DNA of 64,000 nt from Cymbidium sinense (taxonomy: Eukaryota; Streptophyta; Magnoliopsida; Asparagales; Orchidaceae). The position numbers and the translations under genes were made by a program. Below are positions 1 to 27,542 of this stretch, in pieces; positions within the stretch are counted from its first letter, which is position 1; every line of letters starts with the position of its first letter. The DNA lies in the NCBI GenBank assembly GCA_021442155.1, contig CM038222.1, forward strand, positions 55,361,352-55,425,351, in the 5' to 3' direction. The notes below the pieces were generated by a model that was not told the DNA's origin, did not search any database, and was given only the letters and a program-made list of their open reading frames with translations.

Positions 1-480
1 AAATCCAATTCCAAAAAACTTTTCTAAGTCCTTTGATTCCCTCTCATGGACATAGCTCAAATCTAATCTAAATCAATTCAAATTCAAGGAGTTTTCTCAT
101 AACCCAATTATATTATCATTTATATTCACATATATGAAAAATAAATTCAAATAACTAAAAATAAATTCAAAAATCAAATCCAAATTCAATCCAAATTCAA
201 CCTAAGTCTTTCAAGTCAAACTCTTGAACTTAGCCAAATCCAACTTAAACCAAGTCAAACTCCTGATTTTTCTTCATAATTCAACCAATCCAAGAATCAT
301 GAATCCAAATATAAACATTAAATTCAATCATCAAATCAAAAATCAATTCAAAAATCAAACTCAAGTCAAACTCATGTTCACCCTTTTGAACTTGAAATTA
401 TCAAATGAATCAAAACTCATTTGACTTCAAACCATTTGCAAGTGGATTTATATTTCAATCATAAGTCCATGTGTGAGTTC

Positions 481-1330
481 AATCAAACACAAATCAAGCT
501 TTAACCAAGCCATTTGACCACATATGCTCACTTGATCCAAAGTGACCTAAAGTATCCTTATGAGTCAAATTATAATCCTAACCAAATTGGATTGAACTAA
601 GCCCAACTAAGCCTCACATTGTGAGCAACCTAAGGGTCAAACCAATTGGGTCAAACCAAGTCAAACCTAAGGGTTGCCAAGTCAACACTTAGCCAAAATA
701 GAACTTAAACTAGTCAAATATACCATAAGCCAAATTGATTAAAACCATTGATCAAAACTCATTCATGACCAATGTTTGAACTTGACCAAGTCATCATTTA
801 AGCCAAACCTAGCCCAATTGGCCACTTGACCCTAGTTGACCCAACTTGACCTAAAAAGTTAAAATATGTTAAACTTGATCTAAGCAAAATTGATTAAAAC
901 CAATGGGTCGAGTTCATTCCAAAATGATTGTTGAACTCGACCAAAGCCTCAATTGGCCAACTAGACCCAACCTGACCCAATTGACCATGAACCTAACTTA
1001 ACCTAAAAGGTCAAATTGAGTCAAACTCAAATATAAACCAAACTGATTACAAACAAAAGATGCCAATCAATTTCAAATGACTAATCAAACATAAACCAAC
1101 CCATGACCTAACCTAAATAGGTCAAATGGGTCAAATTGGTCAACTTAACCCATTTGACCTAAACGAAATCGAATGAACCAAATTCAAATATAATAAAATT
1201 TAACCAAACCAATGATGCCAACATATTTTAAATGGCCATATCAACTTGACCCAACTCTTAGTTTGACCCAATTTAACCTATCGGTCAACTTGATCCAAGT
1301 TGACCTATTTTGACCTACATTGGTCAACAT
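481..1330. repeat. TTGAC/GTCAA-rich zone in the upstream part of the LTR
   Basis: TTGAC words, mostly followed by C and often by AA, are very dense here. I count eleven on the plus strand in 850 bp, plus many GTCAA words (the same motif on the other strand). The equivalent zone recurs at about 21340-22200, 33890-34680 and, inverted, 45900-46950. TTGACC/T is the core W-box bound by WRKY transcription factors. It lies in what would be U3, so a regulatory role is possible, but the array could also be simple amplification of a short AT-rich word. Confidence 0.5.
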
Positions 1331-1589
1331 GAGCCAAATCATATCAATTCAACTCCAAATTCATTGAAACTTGGCCCAACCCATTTTTAAATTATACTAA
1401 ACATATTCAAATTAAAATCCAAGCCAAATGACCATTTTACCCCTAATTCAAAGGGTAAATTTTGGCCAAATTCACTTAGAATTTGGTCAAATCCTCTCCA
1501 TGACCACTTGGCACACCCATAGTGAACCAAGTGGACACTAGTGAGTGTGATGCACCTAACCCATTAGGTTTGGGTCAGCCCAACCCAAC

Positions 1590-2240
1590 CCAAGGTCAAA
1601 ATCAACCACCCCCATGGACATAAGCACATGGGATTCCTTTCTCCAATTGAATTAAGCACATGGCAAGCTCCTCCACTCCTTCTCTGGCCAAAACCAAATG
1701 CCATGCCCCTCTAAATGGCCTAAACAACCCATTGAATAGGGTGTATTGGATCAAAATAGTAAAGCTCTTCACGATCATCCGATTCACCTAGGGGGAGATA
1801 TACTCCCCCTAATTTCATTTGAATTCAACACTCTCCAATTCAATTTAGCTAAGGTAACTTAGAGGAACCATTTCCAAGTCCCCCCAAGCTCTCTCAAGCC
1901 AATTGAACTTCTCCATTTTTGGATTTTCTCAAACTGAGAACAAGGGAGCTCAAGAAAAATTCAATCTCACTCCACACTCAATACCAACCCAATTCACATT
2001 ACAAGCTTCATCAGGGAACTCAATCTAGTTCACTCAAGCCTTCACACAAGTTCTCCAAGCAAGGGAAGAGTGTTCTAGATCAAGGTTGTGAGCATATCAA
2101 GGTGAGCTTTGTCCATAGGAAGATCCATCCAATTTCAACACCTCAAAACTTAAAAAAGGCTTCATCTCCACTAGACGAAGCTACTTCAAAGGAATCGAGC
2201 ACTGGTGATAGCCTCCGGTGAGGTATGCCATTAAATTGAG
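1590..2240 (+). other. GC-richer LTR island ending in a splice-donor-like GAG/GTA
   Basis: A local rise in GC within the AT-rich LTR ends with a motif containing GGTGAGGTATG at about 2217-2227. Counterparts lie at about 22910-22935 (A 3' LTR), 27690-27700 (B), 35530-35550 (C) and, inverted, about 45321-45335 (D). GAG followed by GTA survives in four of the five; the A 3' LTR has GATGTAC. It reads like a conserved 5' splice donor at the end of a transcribed segment. The 100-codon frame at 1919-2221 is not maintained in the other copies, so I do not call a protein. Confidence 0.3.
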
Positions 2241-5200
2241 CATAATTTCATCTCCTCTTGGTCCTTTATGAAAGGAAGTTTCATCTCAAGCAAAGTTAGT
2301 CATTGGATGTGTTCCCTTTACTCTTAAATGGTGTGGGTTGAATTTGGATTCAATCTGACCCCAATCGAGCTTGGATCTTCCACTAGAAGATGGACGGTGG
2401 CCATCTACCATAGGCAAGATCAGGGATAGATCATGGGCCATCCATCTGAGCATTTTGGATGGACGACCATGATCATGACACATAGATCCATCGTTCCCCA
2501 GGCTTGATCTCAATCATCTGATCCTTCATCGACCACGGGAGAGGCACGAGCTGATGCGTTATGATGTGAAATTTAAATAGCCTCTCCCATCATGCCACAT
2601 CGAAAGTGGCTACATCGACATTAGCTATTTAATTAAGGGATTAATTACCTAATTAATAAAATCTTCAAATAATCATGTAAAAAATCAAACAAATATGAAA
2701 TAAATTGCATATGAAAGATAATTGAATGTAGAATATTATAACTTTGATTTTGATGGATTTTGAATAGTTATTTTTTTGAATTTAGGTTTTGTTAGGAATA
2801 TAATTAGGCTAATTACTCTCTGATTATTCCATTAATTAATCTCAAACTTCTTATGTGTATTTAGTGGGATTACTTCTACCTTCCTTAATTTTCTTGGAAT
2901 TTATTAATGGTTTACTTAGGGTAATTACTAGATTCATTCCTAATTACTCTCCTAATGTAATTAAGCCTAATTAATTGTGTAATCAGTGGTTTAATCCCTT
3001 GATTGAATTAATTAAGGTTTGTTTAAATGAACAAGAGATTTAGGTAATAATTTTTGGATATTTTTCTTAAGCTGTTCCTTAAACACCCTTCTTCCATAAT
3101 CCAAATTTAATTAAGGATTAATCCACTAATTACCTAGCTAATTAATTTGATAAAATTCTAAAACCTTCCAAAACTTAATTAATTCATCTTAGGTAGGTGC
3201 TTAGGTGTTCAATAACCTAATTACATTGAGAAAATCAAAATCCAACTCACATGTGTGACAGGGGTTATGAAAGTATTTAAATTAAACCCTTTAGCTTAAT
3301 TAATCATTAATCATTAATCATGAGCCAATTGCATTAGGTCCCTTTCTTTCTTAGGTGCATTATTGATTTAAATTCTTTGTATAGTTTTATGTCATATATT
3401 GGCTCATAATTATTTGGTTAAGTATGCTATGGTGTAGTGGGTAATAACACACTTAATTCACACCTTAACTTAAACAAAATATAAAAATCACCTAACGATC
3501 CTAAGAACAAATTAAATTAACTCACATATGGCAGAAATGGGTTAGGACCAGCAAACATTCTTTCCCATTTCCTAAATCAAACATAAAGCAAATTCAAAAA
3601 AACAAAAATCACATTAAACAAACTTTTATTCACTTTGAACTTTCTCCATAAGATTGTCTTTAGGAATTAATTAGGGTGAATGAGTTTACATTGATTTCAT
3701 CACTTTATATCTTTTCTAGCATGCTAAATGTGTATGTCATATGAAAATCATGCATCCATCCCTTTTAAAAATAAAATTAAAAATGGAATATTTTCTTTAT
3801 TTCAAATTGCATGGGTTGGCTAAAGTAAAAAATATGAATGGCTATTATCACTATTAAATCTAAAATTATTTTGAAAACTTATAAATCAAATATCAAAATT
3901 AAAAGGTATGCTACTTATACTTTATTTATAAGCTTGCATGTGAATATAAAAATGTGCCTTATGTTCGCTTCCTTTCTTTCCTTTTAACATGGATTTGAAT
4001 AAGATTCGCAAAGTGTATAGTTCTTTTAAAAGAATATAACACTTGCTTACAATCTACTCTTATCCTCTTCCATGTTATAACTTAAGAAGATATTTACATT
4101 TATACACATAAATTGCATAAACAAACCAATAAATAAATAAACATAAACTTTGCATCTTTCTGTTTTCCATTTATCACTTCTGTATATGCATATGTATTTA
4201 AAGAAGGTGGTATCTTAGTCTGGACAACCCCAAGATTGTGAGGCTTTAAGTAGCCCTAAGTAGGTCTTGTGTCTTACACCCCTGGTGCTAACAATGGCTT
4301 TGTACTCACTTATGCCTTTTATACATACACATGTGCATATGAATAAAGGATAAAAGAATAATACTTTTTTACTTAATGAAAATCATGCATCATAAAGCAT
4401 TCAAAATTTCTTAAGTAATATTTCTTAGCATTCATCATAAAGTGTCCTAACTATTTCTAATTATATGTATAGATATGCTTAGGATTCATTCATATGTATA
4501 TTATACATGTTGGGAAAGAAACGAAATGGTGTATGTTTTGTAATATTATTTCACTTTACTTAATCTTAAAATGTCTTTCCTTTTTGAATAGGTTTGTTTA
4601 GAGTTAATCTAAACTTAGGATTAATTAAAACACATTAAAAAATTCACTAAACAAAATTAAACATGAATTTACTTTAGAAATTACTTAGTTCTCTTCTCTT
4701 TTCTCTTTACAACTTAATACTTAATAGGATTCTCCTAAACCAAATCAAAAATACAAAATAAAATTAACCCCAAAATAACTAAACAACTTAAATTCAAACC
4801 ATCCTCTAAGTTAAACATTTTCATAATTAGGAAATCTAAACCTTAAAGCCATAGCTAAGTTTACCACATAAACCTTTTAAAGCACACGCATTAGGCTAAG
4901 TCACTACTTGTAGCTTTAGGTTATGGCGGTGCATGATTTAACATTTTCTTCTATTTTATGATATTTTATTTTAGTCTGGATATTAGGGTGTATGTGCGTA
5001 GACTGAATGGTAGGATGATTTAGTCTAATCATTATCTTTTGCATGGTATTATGCTTAAGTGGCATTTAATAAATAAAAATATAAATGCTTTTACTGTGTA
5101 GGTGCTTATACCCCTAAGCATAATCCAATAGACCAGGAAGACTTGGTTACCCATGTGTGGGTTGCTAAGTTCAATATACATGCTTGGGATTTGTATGATT

Positions 5201-6730
5201 TATTTAGTTAATCTATGTTTTGTATGTGTTAGTTAGATTAACTTTTCCTTTTCATGTACTTTTATAATTAATATTTTAGAAGGATTGTTATGGAGGATTA
5301 TGATGAGCATTGGTCATAAGATTTCATCTTATGTACCATGTGAAGCCTTCGGAACAACCATGTTCCAACCATCCAAAGGAAGGAATAAAAAAAAGAAATA
5401 AGAAAGAAGAAAAGAAGAAATGATGACCCCATATAACATTAATTTTGCTAATTGTAGTTAATTCATTTGTAACTGGGTTGTATAAGGGTATAGCTTGGCA
5501 ACCCAATTTGTCTTCAAGTTTGAGCAGTGGAGCCCGACCACAAATGGCCTTTGATGTTTTATTTAGCTTATGCATTAGAAATGACATGTTTTCCTAGTTT
5601 CTTCCTTGCTTGATGTATGGCCTGGATGACGATTAGGCTCTTAGGGAAAAAAAATCTTCTACCAAATTAATCAACTCAAAATTAAAAATAAACAACTCAT
5701 AACCTCACTTAAATCCAAAGTTAAAATCAAGATAAAAGAATTAGTAACCCCTTAATTGGATGTGTACTTTCTTTTCTAACATCATGCATAAAAGCATATT
5801 ATTTTACTCTTGATTGGAGGGCTTCCACCTTTGCCAAAGAATTTGGCTTGACCTGTGAGAGTCATGGTGGAAACACACCTCCTTATCTTACTAATTTTGG
5901 CCCATAATCTTATTTCTCATGCATAAAAATCCTAAAGCCGGTGTCAAATTGATTGTCCAAAATAAAAATAAAATGTAACAAAATTTGCATTAGATTTAAG
6001 TCGTTAAAGCATGCCCTACATGATCTAGTCTCTTAAAGAGTGTGTTTGCGGACTTAGTCTCTTTTTAAATAAATAATAGCTTAGCTATCTTGCAAAAGCA
6101 TTTTAATTGCCTACATATTTTAAAACTGTAGGAGGAGTTAGTTAGCGGCCACCCCCAGGCGGTTGTAAGCCCAACAGTTAAGCGATTTATCCTCTCTTGT
6201 GGAGGTATACCAAATACCCATTTTTGCCTTAAATTTAAGTCATGCTTTTGTCCCTCACCAAAGCTCCCTAGATTTATGTTCAAAGGTTGCTACTTTCCTT
6301 TGTGGGCTATGAGCATAAATCATCACCTCTTAGGCATTTTCATGATCTTGTATCATAGAATCATAAGCCTTAACTTTCTAATAAAATTTCAACTCAAATA
6401 AATCAATTCAATTTCAAAAATATAAAGCCCAACCATAGGATAGTTTGGGATGCTTACTAGGCTTCCTAGTATCCTAAGAATCCCCTACTTATCTTCATTT
6501 AGCTTCGATAAGAACTTCCTCCTCTTGATCGATCCAACTTGACTTTTCTAAAAATAAGCCAATCAATCGATAGTCCTACCTTTCAAAATCTTTGGAGACA
6601 ATGATTATTTACCTTAATTGAGAGTATTCCTAAAGAATCTTATTCCTTGGGATGTAATTAACTATGTGGGCTTGCCCCTATAGGGAACTTAATGAACCCA
6701 GTTTAAAATAAACCCTACTTTACTTTTCCA

Positions 6731-6736
6731 TATAAA
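6731..6736 (+). promoter_or_regulatory. TATA box of the element A 5' LTR
   Basis: TATAAA sits within CCATATAAAGTAGGGG, about 245 bp before the LTR end, a usual place for the U3/R boundary. The same context is kept at 27290-27295 (A 3' LTR) and about 38169 (C, ATAAAATAGG), and is altered in B (about 32500). Conservation within the family and position support the call; no transcript evidence is available. Confidence 0.45.
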
Positions 6737-6980
6737 GTAGGGGAAGAATCTCTGGCATAAGACATAGTCCCAGAGTCCTTAGGTGATTAGGTCCATTGTA
6801 GGGTGATGACTTCTATCTCCTAAGATAATATACATCTCTTCAATGTCATACCCGATCACCCTACTAAGAACATATGCAGATCTGCATGGTGTCCCACCAA
6901 GGTGTTATATATTTCTGTTTTCATTTATCCTTCTTTCCAAAAGGGGATAGATGAAGGCGAAGATATATAATTTTACCACA

Positions 6981-7010
6981 GATTTTTCTAGCAACTCCAC
7001 TGGAGAAGGT
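6981..7010 (+). other. Possible primer-binding site region of element A
   Basis: Directly after the LTR end come GATTTTTCTAGCAACTCC and ACTGGAGAAGG. From memory this resembles the post-LTR sequence of Tat-lineage elements, where a tRNA 3' end pairs with a GCGACTCC-like core. Here the core reads GCAACTCC. The position is right, but I cannot check it against a tRNA set. Confidence 0.35.
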
Positions 7011-7544
7011 TCCTCTCTCAATCATTGGTAAATGATCATTATATCCAAGTATCGATAGTAGGTTTGTACTTTTGTATGAATCCAATACTATCTTTCTTTT
7101 CCGTTGGCACTTAGCTTATTTCATCCTTAAGTTAAGCTAGCCAACATCTTTAGGTTTTAAGACCTCACCCTATGTTGGTCTTAAAACCCCATTGGGTTCT
7201 CCAATGAGTGAAAATAAAAATTTTAACAAAAAGAAAATAATTAAAGACTTCCTATCATTTTTACGGTAAGGAAAGGTTCATTCCAAAAATAAAATTAAAA
7301 TAAATCCTTCATAAAAAGTCTTGCTTTTCAAAAGCACTTTTTCAAAATACACTTAATAAAATATTTGCACTACATCTAACAATTTTTATAATTGTTACAT
7401 GTAGGAACATTTCAAAAATAAAACCAACAATCATATTTTCCAAAAGCACAAATGAATAACTTCACTCAATTTACTTGAAATAAAAACAATAATTATCTTT
7501 CCAAAAATAAAATTCCAACAATCATGTTTTCAAAAAGCTCCAAA
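7011..7544 (+). other. AT-rich leader between the LTR and the hairpin array
   Basis: No coding signal is visible. The stretch is AT-rich, with A-tracts and repeated words such as TTTCAAAAATAAAA that also separate the hairpins further on, so it may be a worn-down beginning of that array. There is no counterpart elsewhere in the window because copy D lacks this part. Confidence 0.4.
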
Positions 7545-9420
7545 ATTTGAAGATGGGCCTTTCCATTCAATACATCCAAATGTGTTGGATGAATGTTACA
7601 TCTTCAAGCAAAACCACAACATTAAAATTTCACTCAACTCATTCCACATATGTTAAGTTGGAATTTTCACCTTTTCAAAATGCACATATGAAACATCTTC
7701 ATTCAATATACCCACACTTATTGAATGGAGGTTTCATTTCCAATCAAAATCAAAAATAAACTTTCAAAAGCAATATGAAACCTCTTCATTCAATATACCC
7801 ACACTTATTGAATGGAGGTTTCATTTCCAATCAAAATCAAAAATAAACCTTCAAAAAGCACATATGAAACCTCTTCATTCAGTATACCCACACTTATTGA
7901 ATAGAGATTTCATTTCCAATTAAAATCAAAAATAAACTATAAAAAAGCACATATGAACATCTCCATTCAATATACCCAAATTTATTGAATGAAGATTTTA
8001 TTTCCAAATAAAATGACACTGTTTTTGAAATTTCACTTAACATATTTCATATATGATTAGGTTGGTTTTTCCTCTTTCAAAAATTGGTTTCCATCTCACA
8101 TACCCAAATTTGTTAAATGGAAATCTCTCTTTTCAAAATCAATAAAATATAAGATTTTAAAAAATAAAAAAAATATTTGGATCTTCATTTTAGCATACCA
8201 CATTTGCTAAGGTGAAGTCTCCATTTTCAAAAAATAAAATAAAATAACACATTTTTGGAATTTCACTTAGCATACTCAAATTTGCTAAGTGAAATCACCA
8301 TTTCACAAAATTTTCAAAACACATTTGGAACTTCATTTTAGCATGACACATTTGCTAAAGTGAAGTCTCCATTTTTAAAAACAAATTTTGAAACACATTT
8401 TGAATTTCATTTAGCATACTCAAATTTTCTAAGTGAAATCCATTTCACAAAATTTTCAAAACACGTTTGGAACTTCATTTTAGCATACCACATTTGCTAA
8501 AGTGAAGTCTCCATTTTCAAAAACAAAATTTAAAATACATTTTTGGAATTTCATTTCACATACTCAAATTTTCTAAGTGAAATATCCATTTCACAAAAAT
8601 CAAAACACATTGAAACTTCATTTTAGTATACCATATTTCCTAAAGTGAAGCCTCCATCTTTTTCAAAACAAAATTTGAAACACATTTATGGACTTTTATT
8701 TAGCATACTCAAATTTTCTAAGTAAAATCTCCTTTTCACAAAATCCAAAACACATTGGAACTTCATTCTAGCATACCACATTTGCTAAAGTGAAGTCCCC
8801 ACTTTCTACACAAAATCCAAAACAAAAGAAACACATTAGGATTTCCTTAGCATACCCAAATTTGCTAAGAACCCTATTTTTCAAAATCAAATTTTCTAAA
8901 AGAAAAAGAAATACATTAGGATTTTCTTAGCATACTCAAATTTGCTAAGGATCCTATTTTCAAAATTTTCAAAAAAAAAAAAACAAACACACTTGGATTC
9001 CTTATTTAGCATACCCAAATTTGTTAAATGAGAATACCATTTTCAAATCATAAATGATTCACAAAACAAAACAAATGAAGAAAAATAAGAAATTATTTTC
9101 AAACACCTCACTTAGCATACCCAAATTTGCTAAGTGAGTAAATTCTAGAAATCTCAAATCAAAACAAAATTTATTGACCCTTTACATTGAAATACCCAAA
9201 TTTGTTAAATAAAGGGTCCTCAAAATCAAAATCAAAATTCAAACATGAACCTATGGAAGCATCTCTCCAAAAATATTTGAACCCATTTTCAACATACCCA
9301 AATTTGTTGAAAGTGGATTCTACATTCAAAAATTCTCCTTTCAATCAATCTCAAAATCCCTTCTAAATCCATTTGAGCCCCCACTCACATTCGAGATGTT
9401 GAGTGTGGGTTCAAATTCTA
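7545..9420 (+). repeat. Tandem array of about 20 hairpins in the element A leader
   Basis: Units of roughly 65-100 bp each contain an inverted repeat around a similar loop (TACCCAAAT, TACTCAAAT, TACCACAT or TACCCACACT). Stems differ between units yet still pair: CATTCAATA/TATTGAATG (about 7698, 7783), ATTTCACTTAGCA/TGCTAAGTGAAAT (about 8257-8293), ACTTCATTTTAGCA/TGCTAAAGTGAAGT with one G-U pair (about 8333 and 8474), CTCACTTAGCA/TGCTAAGTGAG (about 9106), GACCCTTTA/TAAAGGGTC (about 9176), and CCATTTTCAACA/TGTTGAAAGTGG (about 9283). A-rich linkers such as TTTCAAAACACA separate them. A few units (about 7870, 8030, 8690) have partly lost pairing. The array lies between the primer-binding region and gag, that is, in the would-be 5' leader of the genomic RNA. 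Function is unknown; packaging, dimerisation or translation control are possibilities only. Confidence 0.8.
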
Positions 9421-10990
9421 AATTTAAATTCAAAAATCAACAAAATAGGAATCTGATTTAAGTTTATTTTTAATATTGTAGACTTTCGCTTAGTTCGGGC
9501 TTCACTGATTGCAATGGCGCTAATGTGTTCACTTTCCTCATGGGATGGACTTGGCCCAGATCGGCCTTCATGACATTATGCCCACCTCATCCACTTTGGT
9601 GAGGTTTTGATTACATGTGAGGGACTCCCCTCATGCTAGGACCATGGTGACCAGGCGGTCATCATGACATGCCATCTAACTCAGATATTCCCTCATTGAA
9701 GAGGAAGCGGTGGCGGTTCCCATCATTAGTGCCGGTGGCGGTGCCCGGTTTTCATGTTGCCCTAGGGCTAGCACCCACTCAGCACCTTCAAGGGGAAGGC
9801 TCCCGATCCAGGATTCTCCCACTTTTGAGGTTGGGTCTAGCTCTTACTCTCACCAGACCCCAAAAGGAAAACAAGAACGCATGATAAAGCATACCACACC
9901 ACATTGAGATGAGGTCTTCGATAGTTGTGAGTTGCCCATGATGGTTTCCCTGGTTATAGTAAACCATTCCATCCCTCTCTGGGTGATAGAGGATGCTAGG
10001 AGGACTTCACCTCCACCGGTTTTAGTTCACCGTCGGTGAGAGGAGGAATATGTGCCTCCGTTAGTTTACGAGTAGGTGGAACTACGGATGATCGAGTCAG
10101 CTCAATTTGATTTGAGATCATCATGTGGCGTTGGGGAAGCGAGAGGGCTAGAGGCCCATACATATTCATATCACTAGCGGAGTGCGTAGTGGCGTCGCAC
10201 TCTTGTTTGATTTTCAGATCATGCTACCCGATATGACATCTTACTGGGGACTACACCATGGGAGGGAGCTCTATCTAGAGAGTCGGTGGTGCCTCACCAC
10301 ACCACTCTTCTCATCCTTCCATCACGTCATGTTCATCTCTATTCCAAAGGCCATGAAGGCCGCATCTGGGGAGAAGAGACCCCCACTGGTGATCCGGCTA
10401 TGGGAGATCCCATCCATCTACACCTCTTGTGGCGAGGTCAAGCTCTCTGCTCAACCTTACGCCCTAGTGGTGAATAAGGAATGGTGACTCAAGCATTGTC
10501 ATCCCTTCACCACCACCCACCATGAGATATGGAGATTGTGCGGTAGAGGAGAGGAGTTCATTGATGATATCCTCTAGGAGTGTCACCTAGATATGGCGGT
10601 CGAGTATTTCTCTGGTAGTACAATCCTCACAAGATTGATTCTCCAAGGAGGTTAGTGTATATCATGCACAGTGATCCCACATCGGTCATGTTTTGTGCAG
10701 TAGATTCATTCTAGATGACATAGTAGCTCATTATTTCATGGAAGAAGGAAATCTAGGATATGGTCCAATTTGAGGAGAAGATCGCTTTGATCCCAATGAA
10801 GATGATTTGGGATTGAGGGGGGCATGGTAGATACCGAGGGTTCTCCCTCACTTTGAATTATGGAAGGTGTTGAGGTTGGTAGGAAGACCATTACCAACAC
10901 CTCCTAGAAATAAAGAAGAAAGATGAAAATAGATAGGATGGAGAAGAGCTGAGGACTTGTTAGTCTTAGCACTTCAAAATAAGCAGTTCA
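9421..10990 (+). other. Decayed region upstream of recognisable gag
   Basis: Base composition rises to a more balanced GC here, unlike the flanking leader, which suggests former coding or host-derived sequence. Several short frames run through it (for example 9669-9884, 10182-10487), but none extends far and I recognise no domain. In a Tat-type element the gag N-terminus or an extra upstream ORF would sit here. Stops occur in all frames at short intervals, so it is non-functional whatever it was. Confidence 0.35.
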
Positions 10991-12170
10991 TCCTACTATA
11001 GGACTAGTCATTAGTTGGTGCATGTCTTGGATCAAAGACTTTACCTCCATGAGCAAGGTAGCACCTATAGGAAGGTAGTGGAGTACCTCCATGAAAAGAT
11101 ATCAAGATGGTTGAGCAAGGGTGAAGCATTGGCTCAAGCCAGGATCATCGGTTCAAAGGGTAGACCCTACCGGAGGAATTTGATGCAATCCAATATCCTA
11201 AGGGTTTCACCTTCTTTCAAGAGTTTTGATGGCGTGGGGGCAGAGACATATTGTTACTTAGCTAGTTGTTGCAACAAGGTGGTAGTGATGCTTTACTCTT
11301 CCATCTCTTTGTTAGTTGTTTAGCAAGCATAGCCTTTGATTATGTTGAACTTAGTTGTGAAGACTTTTCTAAGTTGGAGCAACTCTTATCAAGAGGTTTC
11401 TTTGGAGCTCAAAAGGGTGATTGTTGGATCTCATTGTAACAACAAAGTGAGTCTCATTGATTACATTCTCAGATGGCATAATTTGAGTATGAAATGTGAA
11501 CCACAATTGTGTGAATAGTATATCATTGAGATTCTACTTAAGAATATTCATAGCCCAATCACCATCATGCTCAAAGGTTTCACCATCAAAACTTTTAAGA
11601 AACTAATCAACAAGGTAGCTAACAAGGAAGAAACAAGCAGTCACCTTTCAGACCAATCAATAAAGCAAATATAAAAAAGAGGAAGGCGGATAGCGTAGAT
11701 AAGGGAAGCTACCAGAGATTGTTTGAGACACCTCGTGCTACAACCATCACTTCCACCTCTCTACCACCCAGAAGCCCTGCCTACACAGCCTCCACACCTC
11801 ACCTCCTCCTCGACCACATCATCAGCGGTACACAGCATCCCGGTAGGTATGGTCCACTACTCTTTTTTATAAACTTAACAAGCCTTATTCATTTAAGAGG
11901 TAATCAGAAGATCTTTAAGAATCTCTTAAAGTTACCTACAAACCTAGGAGAGAGGAAGTGGGCAAAATGATCTAACTTTTGCCCTACCACCATATGCTAG
12001 GTCATGTTTTGGAAGATTGCTTCACATTTAAGGACGGCTTGAACATAGCTTCAAGACCGTGTTATAGTTATCTGAAGGAATACCTTGTGGAACAACCATC
12101 CAGTTCCATTAGGGTAATCCTTGGGGATACTTGATCCTTCAAAACAAAGAAGGTTGGGATATCTCCTTAT
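10991..12170 (+). pseudogene. gag remnant of element A (Tat-like Ty3/gypsy)
   Basis: Gag would form the retrotransposon capsid. Pieces in shifting frames match the usual order of plant gypsy gag. The segment around 11195-11235 contains PSFKSFDG, like the start of the retrotrans_gag domain. About 11340-11640 reads KTFLSWSNSYQEVSLE, then IDYILRWHNLSMKCEP and IEILLKNIHSPITIMLKGF, typical of the core gag fold. About 11985-12090 contains GHVLEDCFTFKDG, resembling the zinc-knuckle tail, though the first cysteine is not visible. Stop codons (for example near 11323 and 11518) and frameshifts break it, so no gag can be made. Family recognition is from memory of plant gag sequences. Confidence 0.65.
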
Positions 12171-12720: not shown

Positions 12721-13520
12721 GTAATCTTCCATTACCTACCATAAGAGATCACCAAGTCAACCTCCGTGTGGCAAGGTTCTACCTCTAGGGCTGCACCTCA
12801 AGATAGAGGAAATAAGTCATTGGTTAGAGGATGAGAAGCCCCTCCATAGATGCTCCCCTTGGATATGCTTGTGGAGGATCATAGGTGGACTACAATGTCC
12901 TCTCACCTAAGAAAGTTGTCATCTAAGCTAAGCATATACGATGCTCTTATCTTATCCAAAGAGATGAGGGAATCATTAATCAAGGCTCTCTTTGATCTTA
13001 AGATATGCTTAGCTCAGCTGACTGCTATTGGTGAGGAGGCACATTATTTCAGAGAAGCTCAAGGAATCACTTTCATAGATGAAGACCTTCTTCTAGGAGA
13101 CATGGAGCACAACCGTCCCCTCTACATTATAATTGACATGGGCAGATTTAGATTTACCATAGTTCTCATTGATCTAGGTGTATTGGTAAACAATATGAGT
13201 CTAAAGACTCTTGCCTATTTGAGGATCAACATCTCCACACTCCGAGGAGACTGGATGATGTTGAGAGGATTCAATGAACAAAGCGAGGGGGCTTTAGGTT
13301 TCATAGTGTTACCTTTGGAGATAGGTATTTGGAAGACTGAAGCCAAGTTTTATATCATTGATTTGAATACTTCATTCACCAGTTTGCTCGGTAGGCTTTG
13401 GATACATCAGAATAAGATGATTCCATCCTCCCTCCATCAGTGCATCAAGTTCAGAAGGATGGGATTGAGTACTATGTCAAAGGAGATGAAAATTTTTAGT
13501 TAGAGGTTGAGATATATGAG
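12720..13520 (+). pseudogene. Aspartic protease domain remnant of element A pol
   Basis: The longest surviving frame of the element runs from 12850 to 13503 (217 codons). Its first 65 or so codons (KLSSKLSIYDALILSKEMRESL) recur in copy D at 40737-40937. Then FIDEDLLLGDMEHNRPLYI leads into the retropepsin region: VLIDLGVLVNNMSLKTL stands where active proteases have a D-S/T-G or DPGA-type triad followed by hydrophobic residues, so the catalytic glycine context is altered. FTSLLGRLWIHQNKMIPSS matches the conserved LLGRPWIH segment near the domain end, with P changed to L. The protease would cleave Gag-Pol; this copy is very unlikely to be active. Confidence 0.75.
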
Positions 13521-14398: not shown

Positions 14399-15440
14399 TG
14401 TGTATTTAGAAACTTCAAATGATCCAGAGGATCTCCAAATTGAAGATGCACTACCAAAATTTGAAGAAAATATTCATTCAACAATTGACAAGCTTAAAGA
14501 AATTAACCTTGGGATGGAAGGAAATTCACGCCCAACATACATCAGTTCGTTGCTGAATGAGGAAGAAACTAATGACTTAGTTAGGCTATTGACTTAGTTT
14601 AAGGACTATTTTGGATGCAGTTATGAAGAGAGGCCCAAATTATCTCATAATATAGCAATCCACAAACTAGCAATAGATCCTAATGCTAACCCTATCAAGC
14701 AAGCTCCTAGACGATAGAAATTGAAAAGTCATTTGAAATTGATCGATGCGATTTCATTAGAAGAAAAATACCTGTTGTTCAAGTTGAAGAAGAATGGCCA
14801 AATTTGTATTAATTTTAGGGACTTAAATAAGGCATGTCCTAAGGATGAGTTTTCTCTAAATTAATGGTGGACGTCACCTCATCTCATGCAATTTTCTCCT
14901 TCATGGACAGGTCATCTTGCTACAACCAAATCAAGATGGCCCACGAGGATGAAAGAAATACTATTTGTTGAGCCCCGATCGAAATCTATTATTATAAGGT
15001 CATACCTTTCAGCCTTAAAAATACTGGTGCTACCTACCAATGGGCCATGACTCAAATCTTCAACGAACTCATCCATCATCAAGTTGAGTGCTAAGTTGAT
15101 GATCTAGTAGTCAACAGCAGAGAAAAGGAAGACCATCTATTTGACTTTAGAGTAGTTTTTGAATGGATAATATAACCTCAAATGAATCAAGTGCATTCTA
15201 AGTAGCTTGGAAATTCCTTGGGTTTGTTCACACCGGAATAGAAATAGATCCAAAAAAGAAAAAGTTCTTAGAAATTCCACCTCCTAAAGTTTAAATTTAG
15301 ATCTTTCCTGGTTGGATATTTAAGACATTTATTTCCAACCTATCAAGATGTGATTCTCAGATTTATCTTCAAAAAAAATGCGGGATGAAGTGTCGATGCC
15401 TTTGAAGATATCAAGCAAGATTTGGTCAGCTCTAGTGCTA
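14399..15440 (+). pseudogene. Reverse transcriptase remnant of element A, catalytic Tyr codon now a stop
   Basis: RT would copy element RNA into DNA. TNDLVRLLT and FKDYFGCSYEE precede the fingers, as in Tat-lineage RTs. CINFRDLNKACPKDEF (about 14797-14850) is the conserved RT block. NTGATYQWAMTQIFNELIHHQ (about 15023-15082) precedes the catalytic box, which reads EC-stop-VDDLVV at about 15088-15111: the YVDD tyrosine codon has become TAA. Other stops (for example after LVRLLT at about 14596) and frameshifts divide the domain. Copy D on the minus strand keeps YIDD at the same place, so this loss is specific to A. Confidence 0.8.
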
Positions 15441-16500
15441 TCTGCCACTCATCCTCGCTACATTGATGACTCTCTTGCTTGGCCCAAGCCAAGGATGAAG
15501 GGAAGGAAAGTGCTCTCTACTACCTCAAGCATCATCTGGTCCCTGCTAAAGTGAACTACCCATCTATTGAGAAACATTGCCTAGCTTTGATCTTTGCATC
15601 CCAAAATTAAGGCACTCTATGCTTTCTCATAAGGTGAACTTGATTTCTAACCAATCCACTACAGATATCTCATGACACCAATATCCGATGTATGACACAT
15701 TGGTCCATGATTCTTTTGATATCACATTCACTCTCATGAAAAAGCAAGCATTTCTTAAAAAGACACCCACTACCTGCTGATTTCCTGCTTAGTGATGATC
15801 TCCTTGATGAACAAATCATGAACTTAGGGGAGGTTGACAAACACCATTAAGAGATGTATTTTGATGATGTGGCATCTTTTCATAAAGGAGAAGCACCACA
15901 ATCTACTCTTCCGTGAAAGGCGGTAGAATAGTTCTCTTAACGCACATGATGTGATGAGATTCTCCAATCCCACAACAAGCCGAGAATGAGGCTTTGATTA
16001 TCAAGAGAGTTAGTGTATGTCAAGAGCATCAACATCTTTGAGATTCTCGGGGTCATCACAAGATTGGGTCCTACAAGGTTCTCAAACCCATCCTTCGTCA
16101 TTACCGTGAGTATACCAAGAAGTTGTTGGCCCAAATCCTTGAAGTCACCATCTATATGGTTCCTCAAGCAAAGAACATAGCAGTAGATGATTTGGCCAAA
16201 CTTGCCAAAGAATTGGTATGTCCGGAAGACGATTTCATTCCAATAAGGGTCCAAAACAGACAAGTCTTATCCCTTATTGATGTTGAACTCATTGAGAGAC
16301 TTTCTCTTGAAGGGAAAGTTATCGTTGCCTATAACGACAAGGAGCTGGATTGGAGGCAACCATTCATAGGCTATTTGAACTCTTGCAAACCACCTCAAGA
16401 AAAGTCACAAGCCCATCATATGAAATAAAGAACTCTCTCCTATGCTCTAGTTGATGGCACCTTGTACCGACACCCTTTCAATCAAATATTGTTACATTGT
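15441..16500 (+). pseudogene. RNase H / second RNase H-like linker remnant of element A
   Basis: The first half is badly broken; fragments such as HPRYIDDSLAWPKPRMKG and a string of short pieces mark where RNase H would lie. From 16123 to 16428 a cleaner frame reads LAQILEVTIYMVPQAKNIAVDDLAKLAKE, which matches the RNase H C-terminal motif (P..KN..AD.L.KLA) common in plant Ty3/gypsy elements, and continues through DWRQPFIGYLNS into the integrase linker. Its aspartate survives (VDDLAKLA). RNase H would remove RNA from the hybrid during reverse transcription. Confidence 0.65.
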
Positions 16501-17546
16501 TTGGACAAACACAAATCATAGGATTATCACCGAGGTACATTAGTCTATGCGAGCAATTTAAAGATGAAGATGAAGATCAAGAGACTAGATACTATCCTTT
16601 GATGATTACAGACTGCATGGATGTAACTAAGAGATGCCATCAGTGTCATGTACACTGTGTAGTCTTACATCAACCACCCAACATTCTACACCCTACATTG
16701 GCTTCATGGCCATTTAAATATTAGGGTACCAGCATTATGGGTCTAGTCGATCCTCCTTCTTCTAAGGGTCATCGGTTCATTTTAGCTATCACTGACTACT
16801 TTTTCAAGTGGCAAAGGTAATCCCACTCAGAGAGGTCACAACTCACAATATGCTTCAATTTTTCAGAAACCACATTGTATATAAGTTCAACGTGCCTTAA
16901 CGAATTATATCAGATAATAGTACTACATTCAAAAGCACCAAGATCAACAACTTCACCAAAAGATATGGTATAGATTGGAGATACTCCACCATCTACTACC
17001 CTGAGCAAATGGCTTAGCAGAAGTAATCAACAAAACTCTCATCTAGATACTAAAGAAGATACTTGATGATAACAAGCGGTAGTGGGATGAGCAATTGGTT
17101 GAAGCCATGTGGGCCTACCGCACCACTTACTGAACTCCAACTCAATCTATCATATTTTCCTTAGTGCATGGTTTTGAAGCCGTTTTACCTTTAGGAATTC
17201 AACTCCCGTAACTAAGGATAGCATTGGGTAGCAAGATCACTAGAGAATGCAAAAAGAGAAGAGCTCAGGTTTGGAGGAGAGTCACTAGCTGCGAACCTAC
17301 AAAGCCAAAATGATTCAAGCTCACAATAAGATGGTCCACCTTAGGTCTTTCTAAGTAGGAGAACTTGTGTTAGTCCTAAGGAGACTAATTGTTGCCTGTC
17401 AAAAGATGGGAGGCAAGTTTGAACCCACTTGGGAAGGACCTATGTCATAGAGAAGGCCTACCAAAGAGGATCCTATCAGCTCAGTGATTATAAAAGGGAA
17501 CACCCAATGCTTCCAATTAATGGGCTCTATTTGAAGAAATCATAAA
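16500..17546 (+). pseudogene. Integrase remnant of element A
   Basis: Integrase would insert the element's DNA. CMDVTKRCHQCHVH (about 16617-16655) is the cysteine pair of the HHCC zinc-binding domain. GHRFILAITDYFFKWQ (about 16768-16815) carries the first catalytic aspartate of the DDE core. The second aspartate lies in ISDNSTTF (about 16910-16935), and the glutamate region is frameshifted near 17010-17035 (GLAEVINKTL). GGKFEPTWEGP (about 17410-17445) marks the end of the polyprotein. Several stops and frame changes separate these blocks. Coding similarity ends at about 17546. Confidence 0.75.
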
Positions 17547-20405: not shown

Positions 20406-23400
20406 TGTTGATATCATTTTTAGGTTGAGCTCTCAACCCCTCCATCTTAGACATAGGACTTCTCTTAGACACTAAGAGTCTCTTTAGTCTTAAAAAACTT
20501 CTAGTGATTAGGTGGACACTCAACTTAACCCTAGAGACTTAGAAGAGTTAGCCAGAAAATAGTCATACCTTAGGTGAGAAAACTTTCCTATCCCTGCTTC
20601 CTCTTTCAATCTCACTTCCTTCAAGTCAAACTCCAAACCAAATCAACTTCAAACTCAAATCAATTCCAAATGATTGAAGCTCATGATTGAAATTCCAAAT
20701 TCAAAAATCCTTCCTAAGTCACTTTGATTTCATCTTATAGCCTTAGCCTAAAATCAACTCCAAATTAATTCAAATTTAAGAAATTTTCTCATAACCCATT
20801 TATATTCTCATTTATATCCACAAATATAAATGAAATATAAATTCAAATATCCAAAATCAATTCAAAACAAACTCAAATTCAATCAAAATTCAACCTAAGC
20901 CTTTCAAGTCAAATTCTTGAACTTAGCTAAATCAAATTTCAAATCAAGCCAAACCCTTAATTTTATTCATGATTCAATCAATCCTTCAATCATGCCAAAT
21001 ATAAATATAAATCATCAATCCAAAATCAATTCAAAACTCAAATCCAAATTCAACCAAAATTCAACCTAAGCCTTTCAAGTCAAATTCTTGAACTTAGCCA
21101 AATCAAATTCAAATCAAGCTAAACTCTTGATTTTTCTTCATGATTCAATCAATCCTTCAATCATGAATCCAAATATAAACATAAACTTCAATCAACAAAT
21201 AAAAAACTAATCAAACCCAAATCAAACTCATGTTCACCCTTTGAACTTGAAATTGTCAAGTGAATCAAAACCCATTTGACTTCAAATCACTTGCAAATGA
21301 ATTTATATTGCAATCATAAGTCCATATGTGAATTCAATCAAACTTGATTCAAGCCTTGATCAAGTTAATTGACCCACTTAGGCTCACTTGACCCAAAGTG
21401 ACCTAAAGTATCCCTATTGAGCCAAATTATAATCTTACCCAAATTGGATTGAACTAAGCCCAACTAATTAGTGAGCATCATCATGAGAGATCAATCACTC
21501 AAATTAGGTCAAACCAAGTCAAACCTAAGGGTTGACCAAGTCAACACTTAGCCAAAATGAAACCTAAACTAGCCAAAATCCACCATAGGCCAAATTGATT
21601 CAAACCATTGATCAAAACTCATTCATGATCAATGTTTGAACTTGGCCAAGTCATCATTTGAGCCTAACCTAGCCCAATTGGCACTTGACCCAAGTTGACC
21701 CAACTTGACCTAAAAAGTCAAAATGTATCAAAACTTGATCTATGCCAAATTGATTAAAACCAATGGGTCAAGTTCATTCCAAATCACTTGTTGAACTTGA
21801 CCAAAGCCTCAATTGGCCAACTAGACCCAACCTAGCCCAATTGACCTTGAACCCAACTTCACCTAAAAGGTCAAAATGAGCCAAATTCAAACTAAATCAA
21901 AATTGATTGGAAACAAAGACACCAATACATTTCATTTGACCAATGAAACATAAACCAACCCATGACCTAACCCAATTAGGTCAAATGAGTCAAATTGGTC
22001 AACTTGACCCATTTGACCTAAATGAAATCAAATGAACCAAATCCAAATATAAATCAAATTGAACCAAACCAATTATGCTAAAACATTTCAAATGGTCATA
22101 TGAACTTGACCCAACCCTTGGTTTGACCCAATTTGACCAATTGGTCAACTTGACTCAAGTTGACCTATTTTGACCTAAATAGGTCAACATGAGACAAATC
22201 ATATCAAACCAACTCTAAATTCATTGAAACTTGGCCCAACCCATTTTTCAATCATACTGAACATACTCAAACTTAAATCCAAGCCAAATAACCATTTTAC
22301 CCCTAGGTCATAATCAAATGGCCAATTCCACTTGAAATTTGGTCATATCCTTAGTCCACTTGGCACCTCTTAGTGGACCAAGTGGACACTAGGACATGGT
22401 GCACTTGACCCAATGGGTTTGGGTCAGCCAAACCCAAACCCAAGGTTAAAATTGACCACCACTTGAAGCACATGGGAATCACTCCCACACCTTGTTTTGT
22501 AGCACATGGCAACTTCTCCACTACCCTCCGCCAAAATGAACCATGCAACCCTAAATAACAAAACCCATAGGGTGAATTTGATCAAAATGGATTAAGCACC
22601 GACCATCCAAGGGGAGAATTACTTTTCAATTCAACACTCTCACACTCAATTGAAGCTAGAGCAATCCCAAGCTTCCTAAATCCATCTCCATCCATTTCTT
22701 AAAAAAATGGGGAGCTTCACCATTTTCAATAATCCCAATCCTCCTCTTGCAAGCACTCAGGAAACCCAAGTCATCCAAGTTCACCCAAGCTCCAATGGAA
22801 GAGGGAGGGACGATCAAGGCCATGAGCATTTGAAGTGACCTGGTCCATAGAAGATTCACTCAACCACAACAAACCTTCAAGGACTTCACTAGAAGACCTT
22901 TGGGAGAACCATTGATAGCCTCCGGTGATGTACTATTCAAAATCGAGCAAAATTTGAATTTTTCTTGGTCCTTTTCGAAGGAAAGTTTCACCCCATGAGA
23001 ATTTGACGTAGATCTTTAAATGGTGTGATTGGTGAGTTTGATCTCAATCCAGCTCAATCAGCTTGATGTTGCCAGAGAGTGGATGGTCCCTTCCCATAGA
23101 AGCGGATGGATCATACGCCCATCATGCATTTTGGATGGACATGATCCGATAGATCCCGATTCACCCCTTAAGAATTGCGATCTCAATCCAACCATGAGAT
23201 GGCGCATCACGCTGACCGGATTTTATGATAACTGCCACATGACGCTTCACCACCGATGGGATCATTATAATTAAGGATTTAATTACCTAATAAACATGGA
23301 AACTTTAAAATAACATAAAAAAAATAAAAAAAAAAAACAAAAATAATTAGAAGATAATTCAGAGGAATAAAATTATTTAATGGATTTTGAATTAAATTTT

Positions 23401-26400
23401 CTTAATGGTTTTAATGAAAACTTAACTAATTATTCATAATTCATTTCAAATTTCTTAGATGCATTTAGTGGGATGATCTCTACCTCCCATAATTTTATTG
23501 GGATTTATTGAAGAGTTAATTAAGAAAATCAATTAATGGATCCTTAATCACTCTCTTTATATAATTAAGCTTAATTAAGCATATGAATAGTGGCCTAATC
23601 TTTTTATTAATTCAATTAAGCCTTGCTTCAGTGAAGAAGAGGTTTATGGAATGGATTTCAAGAATTTTTTCTAAGACATTCCCTAAACACCTTTCCTTCC
23701 TTAATCCAAACTTAATTAAGGCCTAATCCACTAATCACCTACTTAATTAACTTGATAAAATTTTCAAAACATTCTAAAACTTAACCAATTCATCTTGTGT
23801 AGGTACTTAGTTGTTCAATAACCTTAGCAACTTAAGGAAATCAAAATCCAACCCACATGTGTGGGAAGGGTTATGAAAGTACTTAAATTAAACCCTTTAA
23901 CGTAATTAATCACTAATTACGAGCCAATTGCATTAGGCCCTTTCTTTTTTAGGTGCATTGCTGATTTAAATTCCTTGTGTCATTTATGTCATACATTAGC
24001 TCATAATTGTTTGATTAAATATGTTAAAGGGGTATAGATAAGGGGTAATTAATGCACTTAATTCACACCTTAACCAAAACAAAATTATAAAAATCATCTA
24101 ATGGTTCTAAAATTAAACTAAAATAACATACACATGTGGAAAATGGGTTAGGACCAGCAAACCTCTTCACATTTTCTAAATTCAAATCAAACTCAAACAA
24201 AACTAAAAATCTCTTTAAAATAAATTTGATTTGCTTTAAATAATTCTATTCCATAAGATTGTCTTTAGGAATTAATTAGGGTGAATGAATTTACATGATT
24301 TCATCACTTCATTTCTTTCCTAGCAAGCTAAATATGCATGTCATATGAAAATCATGCCTTCATGCCTTTTGAAACTCCAATGAAAAATGAAATGTTTACT
24401 TTATGTCAAATTATAAGTTTTGGCTAAAGTAAGAATATGAATGGCTATTATGACTATTAAATCCAAAATTATTTTTCAAAGCTTATAAATCAAATATTAT
24501 AACTAAAAGGCATGTTACTTATAATTATTTATAAGCTTGCATGTGAGTATAAAATGTGGTATGTAATTCTTGCTCTCTTTCTTAACATAGAATTTTATAG
24601 GATTTGCAAAATGTATAGTCTATTTGAAAAGGACATAACACTTGCTTAAATCCATTCCTATACACTTCTATGTCATGACTCAAGATAGAATTCCTCATCA
24701 CACATATAAACTAAACAATCAAATCAAAATCAAACAAACATAAACTTTTGCATGATTATTTTTCCATGCATGTCCTTTTGTACATGCACATGTATTTAAG
24801 AAAAGTTTAATCTGACAACCCCGCGTGAGGTTTTAAGCTAAGTAGGTCCTTACACCTTGGTAATGGTTCCATACTCACTTATGTTTTTATACTTGTAAAT
24901 GTGCAAATGAAAAATGGATAAAAAAAATCACTCTTTTTCTACTTAACAAAATCATGCATCATGAAGCATCCAAATTTTCTTAACCAACTCTCTTAGCATT
25001 CATCATTAAGGTGCGCTAAATATTTCCATTTGCATGTATAGATATGCTTAGGTCATCCATATGCACATGTTGGAAAAGAAATAAAGTGATGTGTGTGTTG
25101 TGCTAGTATTTCACTTTACTTAATCTTAAAATGTCTTTCTTTTTGAATGGGTTTGTTTAGGGAAAATCTAAACTTAAGATTAATTAAAACACATAATAAA
25201 ACATTCACTAAACAAAAATAAAATATGAATCTACCTTATAAGTTTCTTAAGGTAGAAAAAAAAGAGAAGCTCTCTTCTCTTATACTCTCTTTACAACTTA
25301 GTAATTAATTGCAGAATTCATTCAAACTGAATCGAAATATAAAATAAAATTAACCAAAGCAACTAAAACACTAAAATAAAACCACACTTTAAGTTGAACA
25401 CTTTCACACTTAGAAAATTTCAATCTTAAAGCCTAGCTAAGCATACTACATAAACCTTAAATGGCACACACATTAGGCTAAGTCACCATTTCTAACTTCA
25501 GGTTAGGGCAGTGCATGGTTTGATTTTGCTTTTATTTTGTGATATTTTATTTTAATCTGGATGTTAGGGTGTATATGCATAGACTGAATGATAGGGAAAT
25601 CTTAGTCTAACCATTATCTTTTACAGGGGATCGTGCTTAAGGTGCGATGTAATAAAAATATAACTACTTTTGTTGTGCGGGTGCTTATTCCCCTAAGCAT
25701 AATACAAAATTGGCCATGTGAACTTGGTTACCTATATGTGGGGTGCTAAGTCTAATTTATATATATACATGCTTGGGATTGTATGGTTATTTGGCTAATC
25801 TCTATTTTGTAGGTTTTGGTTAGATTTCATTTTTCCCATTTTCATGTAATTTTACAGTTAGGGTTTTGGAATGATTGTTATGGGGTATTAGGATGAATAT
25901 TGGCCATAAGAAGTGGAGCAACTTTCCAACCAACTAAAAAGAAGAAGAAAAGAAGAAAGAAGAAAGAAGAAATGAAGAATGAAGACCCCATAACAATGAA
26001 TTCCTTCTTGATTGTAATTTATTCATTTATAAGTTGTATAGGTAGAGCTCGGCTTTCTAATTTATTTGGGTTTGGTGTGGAACCCACCATAAATGGCCTT
26101 TTTCTTTTTTTGTTTTATAAATTGATTGATGTTTGTTTAGCTTGTGCATTAAGATGGCATCTTTTCCTAGTTTCTTCCTTGCTTTGATGTATGGCCTAGA
26201 TAATGATTAGGCTCTTAGGAAAATAAATTATATATCCAACTAATCAATTCAAACTACAAAATTAAATAATTCATAATCTCACTTAAAGCTTAGGTCATAA
26301 ATCAAGATAATAGAATTAGCAACCCCTTAGCTAGATGTTGTATTACTTTTCTAACATCATGCATGAAAAGCTTATTATTTCACTCTTGATTGGATCGCTT

Positions 26401-27542
26401 CCACCTTTTCTAGAAACTTGGGTTGATCTTTGATAGCCATGAAGAAAATACACCTCCTTATCTCACTGATTTTGGCCCATAATCTAATTTTTCATGCATT
26501 AGGCATATGAATCCTAAAGCCTGTGTCAAATTGATTGTCTAAAAAACAAAATAATATGATAAAAAAATTTGCATTAGATTTAAGTCATTAAATCATGCAC
26601 TACATGAACTAGTCTCTTAGGATGTTAAAGGACTTAGCCTCTTTCTAAATAAATAATAGCTTAGCTATCTTGCCAAAGCATATGACTTGCCTACATATTT
26701 TAAAATCATAGGAGGAGATAGTTGGTGGCCACCCCCAGGCGGTTGTATGCCAACAGTCATGTGATTTATCCTCTCTTGTGGATGTCAACCAAATACCCAT
26801 TTTTGTCTTAGATTTAGGTCATGCTTTTGGCCCTCACCAAAGCTCCCTAGATTTAGGTTCAGAGGTGCTACTTTATGCTGCCACCCTCACCTCTTTTTCC
26901 ATGATCTTGTATCATGAAATTGTAAGCCCTAACTTTCTAATAAAAATTCAACTCAAATAAATCAATTCAATTTCAAAAATATAAAGTCCAGCCATAAAAT
27001 AATTTTGGATGCTTACTAGGCTTCATAGTATCCTAAGCATCCCCTACTTATCTTCATTTGGCTTCGATAAGAACTCCCTCCTCTTGATCAATCCCACTTA
27101 ACTTTTCTAAAAATAAACCAATCGATTGATAGTCCTACCTTTCAAAATCTTTGGAGATAATGATCATTTTCCTTAATCAAGAGCATTCCTAAGAAATTTT
27201 ATTCCTCATGATGTAATTAATTATAGGGACTTGCTTCTATAGGGAACTTAACGAACCTGATTTAAAATAAACCCTGCTTTATTTTTTCATATAAAGTAGG
27301 GAAAAAATCTCTAGTAAATTCTAAGAAGTCCTTAGAATCCTTATTAAGGTGAGTCCATTATAGGGTGGTGACTTCTATCTCTCAAGATAGTATACCTCTC
27401 CTCAATGTCATACTTGATCACCCTAATAAGAATATTTATAGATCTACGTGGTATCCTGCCAAGGCATTATATATTTCTATTTTCATTTATCCTCCTTTTC
27501 AAAAGGGGATAAATGAAGGCAGAGATATATAATTTCACCACA
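20406..27542 (+). mobile_element. 3' LTR of giant element A, full length (7137 bp)
   Basis: It begins with TGTTGATATC and ends with TTTCACCACA. The start was fixed by comparison with the inverted LTR D, whose outer end (complement of 48033-48044) reads TGTTGATCTCAC; sequence outside that point is unrelated in the two copies. The end was fixed by comparison with 6980 and 32702. Internal order is the same as in the 5' LTR: TTGAC-rich zone about 21340-22200, GC-richer island about 22330-22940, AT-rich body, TATA at 27290-27295. At more than 7 kb it exceeds the usual range of plant LTRs (hundreds of bp to about 5 kb). Confidence 0.85.
27290..27295 (+). promoter_or_regulatory. TATA box of the element A 3' LTR
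   Basis: TATAAA in the context CATATAAAGTAGGG lies about 250 bp before the LTR end and matches the box at 6731 in the 5' LTR. In a 3' LTR it would direct transcription rightward, here into LTR fragment B. Confidence 0.4.

Follow-up and report, generated by a model that had tools for sequence, protein, structure and literature searches.

The stretch of Cymbidium sinense DNA analysed here (the window: 64,000 nucleotides of contig CM038222.1, positions 55,361,352 to 55,425,351) is occupied, over much of its first 48 kb, by one family of long terminal repeat (LTR) retrotransposons whose LTRs, as self-comparison of the window shows, are about 7 kb long. The copy that concerns us reads on the + strand, in order, LTR, leader, gag-like piece, protease, reverse transcriptase (RT), RNase H, integrase, 3' region and second LTR, and by its LTR pair and ordered pol domains we read it as a decayed Ty3/gypsy element. 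Its 5' leader, between the left LTR and the gag-like region, carries on the coding strand an array of hairpins at 7564-9416, and what has kept the arms of these hairpins matched is our subject. An earlier note on this DNA had described a tandem array of about 20 hairpins in 7545-9420, had placed it in the leader of the element, and had quoted six stems and the loops with complementary far arms. The array lies where the note put it, and all of the quoted stems and loops are present and pairing.

Twenty-four hairpins were catalogued in the array (Table 1): 21 family units, two degenerate hairpins, and a final unit with an odd loop. The family units have a common stem register and a loop of 9-10 nucleotides (nt), which is UACYCAAAUU, UACCACAUU or a close variant, and the 22 well-formed hairpins are spaced 67.5-136 nt from centre to centre. 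Two classes of unit, A with loop UACUCAAAUU and B with loop UACCACAUU (variants in u11 and u15), alternate across 8183-8799. Among the other loops, UACCCAAAUU is found in most remaining units, UACCCACACU in u03-u05 and CAUCCAAAUG in u01. The classes, and the class representatives used below, were picked by eye, and the units were registered by the loop; yet 20 hairpins were recovered from structure alone. Tandem Repeats Finder gives periods of 89, 145 and 80, among others, for the array stretch. The stretch from the LTR to the array holds three more hairpins, whose loops are different (7110-7136, 7153-7188 and 7370-7404).

Are so many hairpins to be expected by chance? A finder that uses structure only returns 20 hairpins with scores of at least 13 from 7545-9420, where 100 dinucleotide shuffles yield 3.36 on average and at most 7; at a score of at least 15 the count is 16, and the shuffles average 1.15 and peak at 3. 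The mean folding z-score is -3.3 over 17 segments of 120 nt starting at 7441-9361, as against -0.97 over all 533 segments of the window. A covariance model built from the 21 family units recovers them, and elsewhere in the 64 kb it finds only marginal matches, the best at 43031-43075 (E 0.024, 13% GC), plus - strand echoes of the array hairpins. Exact loop motifs in the leader number 15 on the + strand and 0 on the - strand. Rfam at the gathering score gave 0 matches across the window, and the loop-and-stem pattern gave 0 in a collection of non-plant viral contigs, a negative of little weight.

The covariation set consists of 21 of the 24 units (the two degenerate hairpins and the odd-loop unit are left out), which make 20 distinct rows and align gap-free except for one loop base. 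Standard pairs fill 88.8% of the 260 cells, compared with 71.6% when the letters of the 3' arm are shuffled (0 of 500 shuffles reach the observed value) and 33-50% when partners are slid. Doubly changed cells number 56, against 20.5 in the shuffles, and the covariation score is 0.589, against 0.268 shuffled and 0.08-0.17 slid. RNAalifold independently predicts the same 13 pairs. Arms were swapped between units to allow for relatedness among them: for 12 representatives the energy is -15.5 kcal/mol with own arms and -7.5 kcal/mol with swapped arms (0 of 20,000 permutations), and for all 24 units -13.95 and -7.6 kcal/mol (permutations also 0). When unconstrained evolution from a perfect hairpin was simulated on the unit tree, which rests on 36 columns, none of 2800 runs (1000, 600, 600 and 600 at rate scales 0.5, 0.75, 1 and 1.5) reached the observed pairing of 0.894. 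The earlier claim that pairing is kept as the stems vary thus stands above the shuffled, slid, arm-swapped and tree-simulated backgrounds. We take the covariation to be real at this copy, and the hairpin structure of the leader is well supported.

Within a unit the loop is the conserved part. Among 12 units with ten-base loops the loop identity is 0.88, a figure from which class B, with nine-base loops, is left out and to which two same-class pairs contribute (u10/u12 and u18/u19); arm positions 8-13 have an identity of 0.40-0.41, and positions 14-18 of 0.28-0.37. Ungapped spacers, compared in 11 units, are 0.39 identical, against 0.36 shuffled. G makes up 27% of the 3' arms, 2% of the loops, and 6% of the 5' arms and spacers.

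We propose that the leader encodes about 22 sense-strand RNA hairpins under selection for pairing and loop, and that they most likely formed a multivalent docking site, above all for Gag in packaging; we would give this proposal an even chance of being right. The array would have grown by tandem duplication in a G-poor background. While the element was active, selection would have maintained the pairing and the loop, the stem sequence being free as long as it paired, and we infer that this selection acted on RNA rather than DNA. A single-stranded loop kept on stems of free sequence is a usual sign of a loop-binding protein. Such a protein, above all the element's own Gag, may have docked on many of the loops, and through docking of Gag the genomic RNA would be recognised and packed into particles.

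What else might keep the arms matched? The earlier note offered two mechanisms, selection on RNA structure and the copying of one arm onto the other. In the second, RT template switching or DNA quasi-palindrome correction would rewrite one arm from its partner, so that pairing is kept by mutation, not by use. The outer stems of neighbours such as u21-u24 differ widely and still pair, as copying would predict, and the small GU excess and the two compensated LTR changes described below also speak for it. As a control, U3 hairpins were compared among four of the family's LTR copies, which are 60-83% identical, and comparisons were kept if at least 80% of pairs were lettered and half unchanged. 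There 26 of 107 changed pairs (24%) still pair and 81 are broken, in a comparison that leans toward selection, because only hairpins already strong in one copy were picked, so that breaks are inflated, and because related comparisons were counted repeatedly. In the array the changed pairs that still pair are 115 of 172 at 65-80% arm identity, 25 of 51 at 80% identity or more, and 76-83% at lower identity, that is, 49-83% depending on the identity band. The LTR hairpins mostly lose the matching of their arms as they diverge, and the array keeps it. Of the two mechanisms, selection on RNA structure is the better fit, because the loop is kept while the spacers are near random identity, and because the diverging LTR hairpins mostly lose pairing. 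Copying leaves these facts unexplained, the last of them with the inflation of breaks just given, and it does not account for the persistence of U-G pairs common to several units of a class. We therefore regard copying, the less favoured of the two mechanisms, as possible but unlikely. That the array is a set of neutral tandem repeats, derived from one founding hairpin and simply decaying without constraint, is scarcely credible: tandem arrays are common in Tat elements (PMC7004042, in part), but the arm-swap, slide and tree-simulation tests contradict neutral decay, and we reject it.

If the RNA hairpins were selected, what were they for? A Gag-binding packaging domain is favoured because a 5' position is typical of packaging signals, and because viruses with many stem-loops that share a motif have been described; from this we infer a packaging role for the array. 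Retroviral packaging signals are commonly at the 5' end of the RNA (PMC8876502, in part). Control of translation is the main functional rival. Here the string of hairpins, with its ATGs, would cause ribosome shunting or an internal start at gag, or would keep the genomic copy from being translated. In plant pararetroviruses, long structured leaders that have upstream open reading frames (ORFs) and ribosome shunting are described (PMC5902531, in part), and 31 ATGs occur in 6981-9482. The ATGs of the array itself are, however, neither depleted nor enriched (24, where mononucleotide shuffles average 22), and ATG depletion was rejected as a feature of the array. As a rule, a shunting leader relies on a single long hairpin rather than on a series of small ones with the same loop, and would have no need of a conserved loop; a translation device seems to us distinctly unlikely. 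A third possibility is that the array worked as DNA, its palindromes being protein-binding sites of an enhancer, a role proposed also for Sirevirus repeated motifs; 13 Sirevirus elements have 8-32 palindromic boxes each in the LTR and linker (PMC2829016, in part). Dyad sites keep their arms and vary in the centre, whereas in the present units it is the centre that is kept (identity 0.88) and the outer arms that vary (about 0.40). Dyad DNA-binding sites are rejected on this ground, and we consider a DNA-level array as a whole highly improbable. Two further ideas about the loops were tried and rejected. Dimerisation by kissing loops fails because the loop palindrome is not kept across units: the AAUU of class A is absent from the loops of class B (UACCACAUU) and of u03-u05 (UACCCACACU). 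For long-range pairing of the loops, 28 matches to the loop complement were found when a single mismatch was allowed, and 12 of them are the loops themselves on the minus strand; the other 16 are outside the loops, the chance mean for all matches being 11.3, and the only sense-strand match within 6981-20640 is at 11480, with one mismatch.

Several observations weigh against selection for pairing and loop in the array. Two counts stay within what shuffling gives: that of pairs changed on both sides, 10 of 13 (63 of 500 shuffles), and that of pair types (171 of 500). In five of the 12 rows of the swap matrix (u01, u03, u06, u20 and u23) a foreign right arm gives stronger binding than the one native to the unit. 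The loop occurs in two lengths, with variants, and a gapped alignment, made without a shuffled control, gives 0.32-0.50 for spacer blocks and 0.82 for the loop block. The LTR U3 is as G-poor as the array (8-10% G), so low G in the array is not proof as such; parts of the LTRs, above all U3, are likewise strongly folded, so folding strength alone is not special to the array. Two clean compensated changes are found in LTR hairpins (906-942 versus 21766-21802, CpG, both arms; 22150-22197 versus 34641-34688). The strand test, which could tell sense-strand RNA from DNA, leans toward RNA without being decisive. GU outnumbers AC by 27 to 11 when 22 units are counted over their first 13 pairs, by 20 to 9 when stems are delimited by Watson-Crick pairs only, and by 260 to 109 between classes, the last being counts that are not independent and in which related pairs enter many times; the LTR control gives 11 to 39. 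Once class-shared events are collapsed the excess falls to 12 versus 9, and within classes it is 11 versus 9, again with related pairs counted many times. This fits a history in which wobble pairs were tolerated in the element's lifetime and decay has been balanced since. Finally, the evidence comes from one copy only, and that copy is old and decayed.

How does the array compare with known systems? Stem-loops placed in the 5' leader are what it shares with retroviral psi and with the 5' ends of Ty1 and Ty3; in Ty1 that end of the RNA is highly structured (PMC4974528, in part). HIV-1 psi, however, has four distinct stem-loops (PMC8876502, in part), whereas the array has about 22 predicted copies of one kind and differs from retroviral psi in having no conserved palindromic kissing loop. 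The multiple packaging signals of single-stranded RNA (ssRNA) viruses and hepatitis B virus are alike in being many stem-loops with a common recognition motif and otherwise variable (PMC6281560, in part). Those signals are dispersed over the genome and have been studied with coat proteins; ours are in tandem in one leader and predicted. The Tat/Ogre/Retand elements, probably of the same broad type as the present one, have family-specific internal tandem arrays (PMC7004042 and PMC11963269, in part), but the arrays treated there lie downstream of pol, while the structured array here lies between LTR and gag; the word "hairpin" is absent from the main text of both papers. The Sirevirus motifs are high-copy dyads in non-coding parts of plant LTR retrotransposons. 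They belong to Ty1/copia elements, are short, have conserved arms (a CGG-CCG core in 12 of 13 elements), and are found in the LTR and before env (PMC2829016, in part); in our array the arms vary and the CGG-CCG core is lacking. BARE is a plant element whose packaged and translated RNAs differ; it is Ty1/copia, and the passages on it in PMC3735527 describe no hairpin array and mention packaging signals of plant elements only in general terms. The earlier note knew of no described leader of this kind in Tat-type elements, and among the matches listed in the open-access literature we likewise found no leader array of covarying hairpins in a plant element.

With its kept loop and free stems, the array makes a candidate that is uncommonly easy to read: its units serve as natural replicates, so that their covariation inside a single element yields the structure without a family alignment. 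The array also offers a test of selection versus arm copying as sources of covariation. If our proposal is true, it would give a direct route to the RNA-binding partner, and would show one use for the tandem repeats of giant plant elements beyond their being products of slippage.

A more specific form of the proposal, which we regard as decidedly doubtful, is that the array corresponds, in nature, to the MS2 hairpin array of the laboratory: a loop-specific packaging domain in many tandem copies that is spliced out of the translated RNA, so that only unspliced genomic RNA would be packed. The splicing part is only a hint. Candidate splice sites flank the array (Table 1); they were scored with general plant splice-site frequencies, tried after the sequence had been seen, and a site pair equally strong at the same spacing is found at 2.3% of 6128 offsets in the window. 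If splicing took place, the translated RNA would lose those of the 31 ATGs that follow 7266, and unspliced RNA would be marked by its hairpins.

Table 1. Features of the retrotransposon copy and of its leader array, in window coordinates.
Feature	Position	Strand	Remarks
Left LTR	1..6980	+	about 7 kb, begins upstream of window; pieces align with 20691-27542
Primer-binding-site-like sequence	6984..7005	+	directly after left LTR; read from sequence
Candidate 5' splice site	7266..7271	+	best between LTR and array; top 0.7% of 2636 GT in window
u01	7564..7591	+	variant loop, two wobble pairs
Degenerate hairpins (two)	loops near 7642 and 8034
u03	7695..7732	+
u04	7783..7818	+	identical to u03 across 36 aligned bases
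u05	7872..7907	+
u06	7956..7999	+
u08	8086..8125	+
u09	8183..8217	+	class B, loop UACCACAUU
u10	8260..8295	+	class A, 13 perfect pairs
u11	8330..8366	+	class B, variant loop
u12	8401..8442	+	class A
u13	8472..8508	+	class B
u14	8548..8583	+	class A, broken inner stem
u15	8616..8650	+	class B, variant loop
u16	8694..8727	+	class A; C-G to U-A double change versus u12
u17	8757..8799	+	class B
u18	8840..8875	+
u19	8920..8955	+
u20	9001..9032	+
u21	9107..9138	+	11 perfect pairs
u22	9180..9215	+	outer stem GACCCUUUA, weak inner stem
u23	9279..9320	+
u24	9371..9416	+	last unit, 17-position stem, different loop
Candidate 3' splice site	9420..9481	+	best after array; CTGAT, U-rich tract, TAG at 9481; top 0.9% of 3334 AG
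Gag-like piece	11489..11647	+	62% identity over 53 residues to start of Dendrobium catenatum protein that continues into protease region
Protease-region ORF	12850..13503	+	7 protein matches: five 57-65% identical over aligned part, two 30%
RT remnants	14849..15091	+	two pieces, Pfam RVT_1 E 0.081 and 0.075, below family cut-off
RNase H of RT	15470..15607	+	Pfam RT_RNaseH E 7e-7
Possible second RNase H domain	15886..16116	+	30% identity, E 0.005, to RVT_3 part of Dendrobium protein
Integrase core remnant	16901..17014	+	Pfam rve E 0.00087, below family cut-off
Right LTR, same family	20640..27541	+	start unsettled, may be near 20406

The two LTRs of the element are 80.9% and 83.7% identical in the pieces at the start and 77.7% across 2630-6980, the last alignment ending at 6980/27542. 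Over 1432 aligned U3 positions the identity is 82.8%, a divergence which indicates that this copy is old and that much of the element has decayed. We named the gag-like piece by its position upstream of the protease; it is without a Pfam match. The protease-region ORF is 58% identical to a Dendrobium nobile protein, and its named matches are two from Dendrobium and one labelled Klebsiella pneumoniae. The last of these, the best relative, is on a 2.2-kb contig and is likely plant DNA contaminating a bacterial assembly. In the non-plant collections, whose negatives carry little weight, the protease frame had no match among viral contigs; the protease alignment gave 137 pattern matches among genome contigs and 42 among viral contigs, 0 of them confirmed in either, and none among plasmids. 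Nine pieces had no Pfam match at E up to 0.1, nor had 16042-16425; piece 10152-10484 had 2 candidates, neither of which scored.

To which clade does the element belong? An additional RNase H (aRH) sets the Tat clade apart (PMC6317226, in part). The Tat-type label of the earlier note is plausible, its basis being a weak match to such a domain, which lies between the RNase H and the integrase and whose further match covers only 17 residues. Tat elements also use a primer site for a non-Met tRNA, and the primer-binding-site-like sequence at 6984 may resemble the tRNA-Arg-type site of Tat/Ogre elements. The 3' region of the element contains a single direct repeat (19303-19693 versus 19629-20021, about 390 bases, 76.6% identical).

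Of the LTR copies of the family in the window, several are direct and one is reversed. In the element on the reverse strand, the match to the LTR ends at 41091 and that to pol begins at 41050, so that leader and gag start seem to be missing. The U3 of the LTRs has inverted, strongly folding TTGACC/GGTCAA-like motifs, presumably W-box-like (1118-1161, 21973-22024, 22150-22197, 34224-34260 and 34641-34688). Two LTR copies carry a hairpin with 32-nt arms that stops 8-9 bases short of their 3' end (6904-6971 and 27466-27533), and its changes from one copy to the other look uncompensated by eye. LTR starts hold short tandem duplications, at 20833-21193 (171 bases) and 33044-33541 (178 bases), and a separate tandem array, with periods of 86 and 162 bases, is found at 51894-52680.
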